A stretch of 64,000 nt of DNA, taken from NCBI RefSeq assembly GCF_000217815.1, contig NC_015707.1, forward strand, positions 372,001 to 436,000. The letters are read 5' to 3'. This document shows, in pieces, positions 15,712-40,303 of the stretch. The translations under genes and the position numbers were made by a program. Below the pieces are notes generated by a model. It made no database searches. It had not been told where the DNA came from and saw nothing but the letters and a program-made list of their open reading frames with translations. The stretch is from Pseudothermotoga thermarum DSM 5069. GTDB taxonomy: Bacteria; Thermotogota; Thermotogae; Thermotogales; DSM-5069. The first letter of the stretch is position 1, and the number at the start of each line of letters is the position of its first letter.

Positions 15712-15725
15712 TGCCCGCTTTTTTC
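15700..15725. terminator. bidirectional intrinsic terminator
   Basis: AGCGGGCA and TGCCCGCT form an 8-bp perfect stem with an ATGA loop, followed by TTTTTT. It ends the housekeeping operon and, read from the other strand, may also end the threonine operon, whose last stop codon touches it. Confidence 0.9.
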
Positions 15726-16617
15726 ATAATGCGGTTATTCCTTCACAGCATATGCCCAAAATTTTATAATTTGCTTTGATACCTTTGCTTTCGAAAACTT
15801 TTACCATGAATTCTGCTGCTTTTTTTGCGCCTTCCTCACTTTTGACAAATCCGGCTACGCTCGGTCCTGCCCCGCTTAAAAAGCAACATAACATGCCTGC
15901 AGACTGAGCATTTTCTATTATTTCTTCCATTCCCGACACAAGTTTTTTTCTGTACGGTTGATGTATGAAATCTTGAGTTGCAATTTGAAGCATGGAAAAA
16001 TCTTTAGATACCAAACTTGCCACAAGCAATGCCACTCTACTGATATTTGATGTAGCGTCTTTCAAATGTATCATTTTTGGGATAATTTCTCGAGCTTTTT
16101 CCGTCTGTAATTCAAACTCAGGTATTGTTACAACAACTTTCAGTTCGTCTGGTGGGAGCAGCTTTTTGAAGAAGATCTTATCATCGTAGACTGCGGAAAT
16201 CGTGATTCCACCGACCAAAGCAGCCACAACGTTGTCAGGATGTCCTTCCATTTCCACCGCCAACTTTAATATCTCTTCTTCCTTCAAAGGCTTGCCAAGC
16301 AACATGTTCGCTGCAACCATTCCTCCTACAATTGCTGCGGCACTGCTTCCTAATCCCCTTGCAAGCGGTATGTTGTTCGTCATTTTTATGCTTACCCCAC
16401 CTTTATAGCCCGCTTTTTCAAAAATTATTTTTGCGGCTTTGAAAACAAGGTTGTCTTCTTTTCGTGAAATCGATTTAGAACCTTCACCAGAAACTTCTAT
16501 GCTTAAAGTGTCAGAAAAATCCATTTCGATGAAATTGTAAAGTGTCACGGCCATCCCAATACAATCAAACCCAGGGCCAAGATTGGCTATGGTTGCTGGA
16601 ATTTTCACCCTGACCAA
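15724..16617 (-). CDS. thrB: homoserine kinase
   Basis: ThrB phosphorylates L-homoserine to O-phosphohomoserine. The 297-residue GHMP kinase starts VKIPATIANLGPGFDCIGMA and has the ATP loop PLARGLGSSAAAIVGG. The C-terminal GAGPSVAGF loop is intact. It is the last gene of hom-thrC-thrB, 6 nt after thrC, and is controlled by the attenuator at 19.0 kb. Confidence 0.97.
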   Translation of the reverse strand: MVRVKIPATIANLGPGFDCIGMAVTLYNFIEMDFSDTLSIEVSGEGSKSISRKEDNLVFKAAKIIFEKAGYKGGVSIKMTNNIPLARGLGSSAAAIVGGMVAANMLLGKPLKEEEILKLAVEMEGHPDNVVAALVGGITISAVYDDKIFFKKLLPPDELKVVVTIPEFELQTEKAREIIPKMIHLKDATSNISRVALLVASLVSKDFSMLQIATQDFIHQPYRKKLVSGMEEIIENAQSAGMLCCFLSGAGPSVAGFVKSEEGAKKAAEFMVKVFESKGIKANYKILGICCEGITAL

Positions 16618-16623
16618 ATCCTA

Positions 16624-17685
16624 TCACTCCCCATCGTATATGGCTTTTTCCAAGGCTTTGATTTCTGGAGGTATCACAACTGGTGATATTCCAATTTTCA
16701 TGGCAGTATCGGGATCTTTCAAACCATGACCTGTTAAAACACAAACGACCTTGGAATTTTTTTGAAAGTATCCCTTGTTGAAGTACTTTATAACACCTGC
16801 AACTGATGCGGCTGAAGCTGGTTCGACAAAGATGCCTTCTTTCTTCGCTAAAAGTTGATAAGCTTGAAGGATTTCTTCATCCGTCACCTTGTCAACAAGC
16901 CCACAGGATTCTTGAACTGCGTTGACAGCGGATTTCCAGCTAGCAGGATTACCTATTCTTATGGCTGTCGCTATTGTTTTTGGGTTTTCAATTATCCTTC
17001 CTTCCACTATAGGCGCAGCACCAGCAGCTTGAAAACCAAGCATTTTTGGAAGTTTTGAAATTTTTCCAATGGAAAAATACTCTTTGAACCCTTTCCAATA
17101 AGCGGTTATGTTTCCTGCATTACCAACGGGTATGGCAAGGTAATCAGGGGCGTCTAAAAATTCATCGCATATTTCAAACGCAGCAGTTTTTTGTCCCTCT
17201 ATTCTGTTAGGGTTTATCGAGTTAACGACAGTTACTGGAAATTTCTCTGAAAATTCTCTAACCAGTTTCAAAGCGTCGTCGAAATTTCCTTCCACGGCAA
17301 TTACTTTTGCTCCGTAAGCAATCGCTTGTGCAAGCTTACCGATTGCAACGGCATCTTTTGGTATCAAAACTGCGCATTTCAGCCCAGCACGTGCAGCATA
17401 AGCAGCTGCAGAAGCAGCTGTGTTACCAGTTGAAGCGCAAATCACAGCTGTTGCACCGTTTTCCACCGCGACTGATATTGCCACTGTCATCCCCCTGTCT
17501 TTGAACGAACCTGTTGGATTCATTCCTTCGTATTTCAGATACAGTTCAAAGCTCAAACCAAGATGTTTTTCCAAGTTAGAAGCCCTGATAAGAGGAGTAT
17601 TTCCTTCTTTTAGCGTCACTATACTTTCTCTTTTCTTAACTGGTAAAAAATCAAAGTATCTGTCAATAACACCCAAGTACGCCAT
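16624..17685 (-). CDS. thrC: threonine synthase
   Basis: ThrC converts O-phosphohomoserine to threonine with PLP. The 353-residue protein is the short form. The PLP lysine is in [11 protein letters not shown], and the phosphate-binding loop is [18 protein letters not shown]. The ATG at 17685 is chosen, because AAGGGGG lies 8 nt upstream within the end of hom, while the longer frame to 17703 would start with a TTG lacking a ribosome site. Confidence 0.96.
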
Positions 17686-17686
17686 T

Positions 17687-18955
17687 TTAACTGCCCCCTT
17701 CAACTTTTATTACAGAATCAACACTTTTAACCACATCGAGTTTTTCAATTTCCAAAACAGCGTTCTTAAGGTTCCCAAAAGTTGTTTTATGAGTTAATAT
17801 AACTATTTCTGCCATCTCATTTTTGACATCCTTTTGAACAACGGTATGAATACTTATGTCGTTCTTTCCAAAAACAGCACTGATTTTTGCAAGAACTCCT
17901 GACTTGTCAATCGCTTTAAGGCGGATGTAGAAATCACTTTTACATGTCCAAACGTCGACGACGTTTATATCACAATTGACAAAGTTGTATTCGCAATTTT
18001 TTCCACTGGCTGCTTCCATAATGTCGGCCACCACGGCACTCGCCGTTGCCATTTTTCCAGCTCCTTGACCAAAAAACATCACCTCGCCTACGGCATCTCC
18101 TTCTACAAGTACCGCGTTGTAGACTCCTCGAACAGAACTTAAAGGATGGTTTTGATTGATCATGGTTGGGCAAACCATGATTTCGATATCATTATCTGAA
18201 ACCTTTCGAGCTGAAGCAATTAGTTTTATCACATATCCAAGCTCTGCGGCATACTTTATATCTTCAATTCCAATTTTTTCAATACCTTCTGTGTAAACCT
18301 TATCTGGCGTTATCCATGTGTTGAAAGCTATCGAAGAGAGTATGGATATTTTCCTTGCAGCATCAAAACCCTTCACATCGGCAGAGGGATTACTCTCAGC
18401 ATACCCGAGTTTTTGTGCTTCAAAGAGAGCCTCTTGAAAAGTTTTTTTGTTTTCTTGCATTTGGGTTAAAATGTAATTGGTGGTTCCATTGAGTATGCCT
18501 TGAATTTTGATGATTCTATTGGCGGCAAGACAACGCTTCATTGGACGTATTATCGGTATTCCACCTGCAACGCTTGCTTCAAAAAGAAAAGCCACGTTCT
18601 GCTGTTTGGCAATCTCAAGAAGTTCTTTTCCATATTTTGAAACAACTTCTTTGTTTGCTGTGATAACATGCTTTCCTTTCTTTAAGGCCTTTTCAATATA
18701 AGTTTTAGCTGGTTCTTCTCCACCAATTAGTTCCACAACAACTTTGATTTCTGGATCGTTCAAAATCTCGTCAGCGTTAAAAACTATTTTTCCTTTTGCA
18801 TAATCTGGCCTTTGTTTGGAAGGATTCCGAACTAGTATTTTTTCCACCACAATTTCTTTGCCAAGTTTTTTAGTTATGATAGAACGGTCCTTTTCAAGAA
18901 GTTCCACAACACCAGAACCAACAGTACCAAGGCCAAGTATTCCAACTTTTATCAT
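17687..18955 (-). CDS. hom: homoserine dehydrogenase with C-terminal ACT domain
   Basis: Hom reduces aspartate semialdehyde to homoserine. The 422-residue protein has the Rossmann loop [13 protein letters not shown], the catalytic region with [14 protein letters not shown] and GGIPIIRP, and a C-terminal ACT domain ([20 protein letters not shown]) expected to bind threonine for feedback inhibition. It has no aspartokinase fusion. AGGGAGGAGG precedes the ATG. It is the first structural gene behind the Thr leader. Confidence 0.97.
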
Positions 18956-18990: not shown

Positions 18991-19024
18991 AAAAAAAGCG
19001 GGCTAGTTTTTTAACTAGCCCGCT
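18991..19024 (-). terminator. threonine attenuator: terminator hairpin
   Basis: On the minus strand AGCGGGCTAGTT and AACTAGCCCGCT form a perfect 12-bp stem with a short A loop, followed by TTTTTTT. It lies between the Thr leader peptide and hom. Its 5' arm also takes part in the alternative antiterminator. Confidence 0.93.
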
Positions 19025-19100
19025 TCTGCTGAACGGAGATTGCTTTTTTACACAACTACAAGCAACCGCCGTTCAGCAGGCGGGCAGTTGCTTGTAGTTG
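19018..19100 (-). promoter_or_regulatory. threonine attenuator: alternative antiterminator and ribosome-sensing hairpin
   Basis: In the minus-strand transcript, CAACTACAAGCAAC (19087-19100) pairs with GTTGCTTGTAGTTG (19053-19066) in a perfect 14-bp hairpin. The loop segment 19069-19085 is complementary over 17 bp (one 2-nt bulge) to 19018-19036, which includes the 5' arm of the terminator. The two pairings are topologically exclusive. The 5' arm of the first hairpin is exactly where the Thr codons of the leader peptide lie, so a stalled ribosome would free the loop to form the antiterminator. Confidence 0.85.
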
Positions 19101-19143
19101 TTGTACCAGAATTCAATTGAGCAACCACAAATACTTCACACAT
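19048..19143 (-). CDS. thrL: Thr operon leader peptide (31 aa)
   Basis: A 31-codon frame starts at ATG 19143 with AAGGATGTGA 6 nt upstream and ends at TAA 19048. Residues 12-19 read SGTTTTSN, with four consecutive Thr codons ACA ACA ACT ACA (19104-19093). The remaining sequence is without family features. As in enterobacterial thrL, the codon run measures charged tRNA-Thr. Here the run is Thr only, with no Ile codons. The name is given by analogy; homology to the enterobacterial leader is not implied. Confidence 0.85.
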   Translation of the reverse strand: MCEVFVVAQLNSGTTTTSNCPPAERRLLVVV

Positions 19144-19170
19144 ATTGCTTCACATCCTTGTTTTTAATTA

Positions 19171-19199
19171 ACTATACACCCAGGAGGAAAGTTTGTCAA
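19171..19199 (-). promoter_or_regulatory. promoter of the threonine operon
   Basis: On the minus strand, consensus TTGACA (19194-19199), a 17-bp spacer and TATAGT (19171-19176) stand 27 nt upstream of the leader ATG. This is the best promoter match of the window, consistent with control by attenuation and not by initiation. Confidence 0.9.
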
Positions 19200-40030: not shown

Positions 40031-40303
40031 GGTGCCACGATAGGCGGGGGGCTGGCGGTCCCCTGTACCCGAAATCCGCCATACGCGGGGCCGAACTCCC
40101 ACCCGAGGCGGCCTATGTCGGGAAACAGTTCGTGCCGAAGGCGATGAAGGCTGGGTCCTGTGCAACGGTGCGCCGTGAACCTGGTCAGGTCCGGAAGGAA
40201 GCAGCCATAAGCGGTTGCACCGTGTGCCGCAGGAGTGCCTGGCTGGAGCTGGAGGCACGAATATGCCCCGGTTTAGGTTTGTCGACGGTGGGTTCGTGGC
40301 ACC
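40031..40303 (+). ncRNA. ffs: signal recognition particle RNA, large type
   Basis: About 273 nt. The terminal helix is formed by GGTGCCACGA (40031-40040) and TCGTGGCACC (40294-40303). The apical Ffh-binding domain is unmistakable: CCTGGTCAGGTCCGGAAGG followed by AAGCAGCCATAAGCGG near 40180-40215. The length and 5' part show that an Alu domain is present, as in Bacillus, Archaea and Thermotoga, unlike the 110-nt enterobacterial 4.5S RNA. A short T run follows. Confidence 0.95.

Follow-up and report, generated by a model that had tools for sequence, protein, structure and literature searches.

The window, i.e., the whole stretch of 64,000 nucleotides of Pseudothermotoga thermarum DSM 5069 that was analysed, harbored hom (homoserine dehydrogenase, 17687-18955), thrC (threonine synthase, 16624-17703) and thrB (homoserine kinase, 15724-16617) in a row on the minus strand, hom being the first gene of the operon that would be controlled. 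The genome consists of one contig of 2,039,943 bases. A tRNA gene was located farther upstream on the same strand (19589-19517), and all elements of the hom leader described below lay on that strand, between the tRNA gene and hom. A large bacterial SRP RNA was also encoded in the window (40035-40299, plus strand).

A sigma-70-type promoter (TTGACA-17-TATAGT, 19171-19199), matching the consensus at 11 of 12 positions, was found between the tRNA gene and an intrinsic terminator, and transcription would start at about 19164. A Shine-Dalgarno sequence (AAGGATGTG, 19151-19159) was seen 7 nt 5' of the ATG of a leader ORF of 31 codons (MCEVFVVAQLNSGTTTTSNCPPAERRLLVVV and a stop codon, 19048-19143). 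This leader contained four consecutive Thr codons (ACA ACA ACT ACA, 19093-19104), which overlay the KKAK of Lys-type homologues. An earlier note on this DNA had described this promoter and a 31-codon leader with a ribosome site and four Thr codons in a row, and all of them were present. The sensing hairpin P1 that it had placed over the Thr codons was also recovered, with 15 contiguous bp (19101-19087 with 19066-19052) instead of 14. The P1 5' arm (segment 1, 19087-19101) ran over the Thr codons, and its 3' arm (19052-19066) formed the 3' half of segment 2. The terminator of the note (GCGGGCTAGTT-AAAA-AACTAGCCCGC followed by T7, 18991-19023, segments 3 and 4) was found as well, with a stem of 11 bp and two A-U pairs before the T7.

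Segment 2 (19060-19089), the 5' strand of the antiterminator, comprised the P1 loop and part of the P1 3' arm, while segment 3 (19013-19045), the 3' strand, included the terminator 5' arm. Their pairing, AACT-GCCCGC-CTGCTGAACGG-C-GGTTGCTT with AAGCAATC-T-CCGTTCAGCAG-AA-GCGGGC-T-AGTT, had been noted before at 17 bp; it extended over 29 bp because GGTTGCTT:AAGCAATC and AACT:AGTT pair as well. Since the P1 3' arm includes GGTTGCTT, segment 2 (loop and P1 3' arm) pairs classically with segment 1 or segment 3, and the claim of an order unlike the usual 1:2/2:3/3:4 had to be abandoned. The 5' end of segment 2 (AACTGCCCGC) approximated a copy of the terminator 3' arm (AACTAGCCCGC), the loop hexamer GCCCGC (19080-19085) lying within this copy. 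Blocking of the terminator is assigned to this copy in the P1 loop, a special feature found across the family of elements described below.

The element thus combined a short, translatable leader preceded by a promoter, a run of four codons for the end product ahead of hom-thrC-thrB, a hairpin that holds these codons and excludes the antiterminator (1:2 versus 2:3), and an antiterminator that excludes the intrinsic terminator through a common 5' arm (2:3 versus 3:4), all of which are marks of an attenuator. Ribosome-mediated transcription attenuation with Thr codons is therefore very probably the mode of control at this operon. In the proposed mechanism, a ribosome on the 31-codon leader would trail the polymerase. 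With ample charged tRNA-Thr, it would clear the four Thr codons and cover segment 2; once at the UAA or released, P1 would re-form and leave segment 3 free, so that the terminator (19023-18991) folds and most transcripts stop before hom. Under threonine shortage, the ribosome would instead stall at the Thr codons within the P1 5' arm; P1 could then not form, so segment 2 would pair with segment 3. The GCCCGC copy would capture the terminator 5' arm before the real 3' arm is made, allowing read-through into hom-thrC-thrB.

The leader also contained six Val codons, three of them just 5' of the stop, which could suggest ribosome-mediated attenuation that responds not to threonine but to these codons (the VVV near the leader end) or to the general translation rate. 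However, the final Val codons are part of the P1 3' arm, where the need to pair with the arm holding the Thr codons dictates them, stalling at this point would leave segment 2 covered by the ribosome and promote termination, and Val at these places was not kept in homologues. Control by codons other than Thr is accordingly very improbable.

The arrangement exceeded what chance yielded. Among 3000 dinucleotide shuffles, a terminator of this size appeared in 5, such a hairpin in 11 and a TTTT leader in 2, and the three features were never found together (0 of 3000). Runs of four Thr codons numbered 57 across the genome (both strands, any frame). The folded leader displayed an MFE z-score of -6.0. 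The full antiterminator had a small computed advantage in stability over P1 plus terminator, both at 37 C (-46.7 versus -43.6 kcal/mol) and at 70 C (-21.7 versus -19.5 kcal/mol). More stable than either was the combination of the terminator with a shortened antiterminator (-53.9 kcal/mol at 37 C, -25.4 kcal/mol at 70 C). Since these two structures are compatible, blocking of the terminator must be kinetic rather than thermodynamic. A kinetic decision is also the usual view of classical attenuators.

The leader showed no relation to RNA families catalogued in Rfam. The Rfam Thr_leader covariance model (RF00506) had no match in it at the gathering cut-off or at E <= 10, no T-box was matched, and none of the other Rfam families matched the leader; an L20_leader match of 23.7 bits, far below the cut-off of 58.7, was taken as chance. 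A comparable Thr leader upstream of hom was found at none of 29 other Thermotogota loci and at none of 80 loci in other phyla. Within the family, nearly all relatives lacked hom, and the only other genome with the gene (G006) had it without a leader. Because other hom loci carried no Thr leader, the comparative test suggested in the earlier note was carried out on paralogues and on lysine operons instead of other hom operons, and there it succeeded.

The leader DNA matched a second site of the same genome, upstream of dapA-dapB, with 79% identity over about 105 bases (blastn, E 1.2e-17). This dapA copy (L149:6319-6436; C1:84318-84435, minus strand) encoded a leader ending in IIIIKKRNRPPVEWWLRFFA before the stop. 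Four Ile codons (ATA ATA ATT ATT) stood directly 5' of its two Lys codons. A third copy in this genome preceded dapH (tetrahydrodipicolinate N-acetyltransferase; L234:1473-1595; C1:1911272-1911394, plus strand), with a leader ending in IKNAKKRSRPVIDGGCLRLL before the stop. A sequence match also led to the same architecture before asd in another genome, and inspection of the DNA upstream of dapA or asd in relatives yielded ten members whose leaders contained KKAKRSCPL or near variants. A covariance model was then built from 12 members and used for genome searches, attenuators of the own genome being sought by both the model and a pattern. The model revealed the third copy of the own genome and dapH copies in eight other genomes of the family, as well as copies before a basic-amino-acid-type ABC transporter gene, and the elements at dapA, dapH and asd were spread over two families of the order.

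Thirty unrelated genomes scored up to 36.2 bits with this model. Twenty-six matches were read as members, 24 of them at 40 bits or more and two ABC copies at 39 and 35 bits; the ABC copy of G007, which falls within the background range, precedes the same gene as better-scoring copies. Weak matches of 32-37 bits (in G029, G064, G065 and G021, and a single one in G046) were left out of the count, because unrelated genomes reach 36 bits. Three antisense matches, reflecting the palindrome, were removed before counting. The thr element scored 98 bits, the thr sequence itself being part of the model, and was homologous to the family over the hairpin, loop, antiterminator and terminator. The assertion that the element is built with unrelated sequence consequently holds relative to the Rfam Thr_leader, but not in view of this homology to Lys-codon attenuators of the own genome and of relatives.

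Pairings were preserved in the family although the sequences of the arms changed. In the 12-member alignment, 99% of the P1 and terminator cells were paired (25-48% in slid controls), and 11 pairs had changed on both sides, compared with a mean of 3.5 after shuffling. With all 26 members, 583 of 617 cells were paired and 17 of 25 pairs showed double changes, in an alignment that was fitted to the structure of the model and thus leans towards it. Among nine representatives, antiterminator arms paired with their own partner (mean -26.8 kcal/mol) better than with those of others (-18.3 kcal/mol), none of 20000 permutations being as good, and the same test on the P1 arms gave 1 permutation of 20000 as good. 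Nearly all members had the terminator-arm copy at the same position of the P1 loop. This copy varied in concert with the two terminator arms, one group having GCCCGC/GCGGGC/GCCCGC and the other GCCCGG/CCGGGC/GCCCGG (loop copy, 5' arm, 3' arm). Selection therefore acts on both alternative pairings.

These results bear on a simpler view of the locus, in which an unregulated terminator and a palindrome happen to lie between the tRNA gene and hom and the Thr codons line up by accident. Transcription reading through would likewise be halted by a strong terminator on its own, and the tRNA gene is located upstream on the same strand. Yet the promoter intervenes between the tRNA gene and the terminator, mutually exclusive pairings covary in 26 homologues, and shuffled sequences did not reproduce the three features together, so that this view was given the lowest probability of all those weighed, close to nil.

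The probable change of specificity from Lys to Thr could be followed at single bases. The codon four places 5' of a conserved CCG codon was Lys (AAA or AAG) in 24 of the 26 members, and it was Thr (ACA) in the thr copy. At pair 17-53 (alignment A3 columns), the other homologues had A-U and the Thr copy alone had C-G. In the maximum-likelihood tree, the Thr copy was sister to the dapA copy of its own genome (support 98), adjoining another dapA copy. The simplest reading of these sequences would be a duplication of a dapA-type Lys attenuator followed by codon replacement, in which AAR would have become ACA at the near-invariant Lys codon and a U to G change of the opposite base would have preserved the hairpin. 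The Thr version is known from one genome, so that its assignment to threonine is based on codons, operon and homology. Both the altered codon and the compensating change of its pairing partner are visible, and a change in specificity could thus be tested directly by mutating a few codons.

Lysine operons of other genomes of the order displayed a lysine riboswitch (RF00168) at the position that the attenuator occupies in the others; no RF00168 match was found in the own genome. Among the 45 genomes of the order (G000-G044), the riboswitch was present in 23, all belonging to genera g7 to g14, and the Lys attenuator in 19, all belonging to genera g1 and g3 to g6. No genome encoded both (0 of 45). 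Neither sensor was detected in G001, G017 and G018, which are 71%, 81% and 60% complete. The match of G029 (36.6 bits), about as high as the best background score, was not counted as an attenuator. In roughly half of the order, the Lys attenuator appears to take the place of the lysine riboswitch.

The riboswitch at the same place in related genomes, along with a strongly structured RNA ahead of a biosynthetic operon, would also fit a leader RNA that binds threonine directly (lysine in the relatives), the ORF being incidental. Against such an aptamer, the homologues that were read had a start codon and an open frame through the sensing codons, the end-product codon run was near-invariant with synonymous AAA/AAG changes, and Lys gave way to Thr exactly where the operon switches. 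Helix sequences varied freely, which fits a switch based on pairing rather than a ligand pocket, and the leader had no Rfam match. Direct binding is thus very unlikely, and neither an aptamer, nor a plain terminator, nor stalling at other codons explains the swap from Lys to Thr matched to the operon. Attenuation by ribosomes at the sensing codons remains the favoured reading, and we consider it likely, with less assurance than for the mechanism itself, that the Lys attenuator replaced the riboswitch in two lineages of Thermotogales, that a dapA copy was duplicated and retargeted to Thr, and that specificity evolves as modules.

The closest known counterpart in logic and operon type is the enterobacterial thrL (RF00506), with a Thr-codon leader, three alternative pairings and an intrinsic terminator. 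The likeness to enterobacterial thr attenuation, with Thr codons only, had been proposed before and agrees with the anatomy and pairings. The present element differs from thrL by the lack of a covariance match, by another gene order and phylum, and by relatives that sense Lys. In E. coli, thrL carries both Thr and Ile codons, whereas the present leader is Thr-only. The Lys-codon leaders of Thermotogota (asd, dapA, dapH) share the hairpin, loop copy, antiterminator and terminator with the thr element but have Lys instead of Thr codons and precede lysine instead of threonine genes. In other genomes of the order, the lysine riboswitch is located at this position upstream of lysine genes but binds lysine directly.

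Leader-peptide attenuators for other amino acids, independent and unrelated in sequence, are described outside Proteobacteria for His in some Firmicutes (PMC9413887) and for trp in Actinobacteria (PMC1262725), and retargeting to another amino acid is not described in the parts of these two reports that were consulted. In Sinorhizobium, the candidate leader SEP5, upstream of a gene of the aspartate pathway, holds six Thr and three Lys codons; it is a single mixed leader, proposed only, for which no structure or homology to the present family was shown (PMC10117765). A survey of RNA regulons including 11 Thermotogales genomes suggested that His, Leu, Thr and Trp attenuator motifs may be gammaproteobacterial in origin (PMC3766115). 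In agreement with the earlier note, no described case in Thermotogota was found in the literature searched, although older surveys might contain such predictions.

Leader-peptide attenuators are usually seen as separate inventions for each operon and lineage, whereas a single family here carries Lys codons at three different genes and Thr codons at a fourth. The mutual exclusion of attenuator and riboswitch offers a natural case of one RNA sensor replacing another at the same genes. Attenuation in a thermophilic phylum would also open transcription-translation coupling and RNA folding near 70 C to study.

Other codon contents were observed in further leaders. The members before ABC binding-protein genes of basic-amino-acid type (L244, L245, L246) had Lys and His codons, e.g., IKHHAKYSPV. 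Candidate Phe-rich leaders (FVFAF, FSFF) with the family architecture preceded TrpX-type ABC transporter genes (L247 of G050, 855-982; L250 of G090); both scored within the background range of the model and are candidates by architecture only. A candidate Trp attenuator with four TGG codons, its leader ending in NWWWWTTGGCPPPFLLCCIIKSTA before the stop, was located upstream of a TrpB-like gene (L252 of G021, about 690-860).
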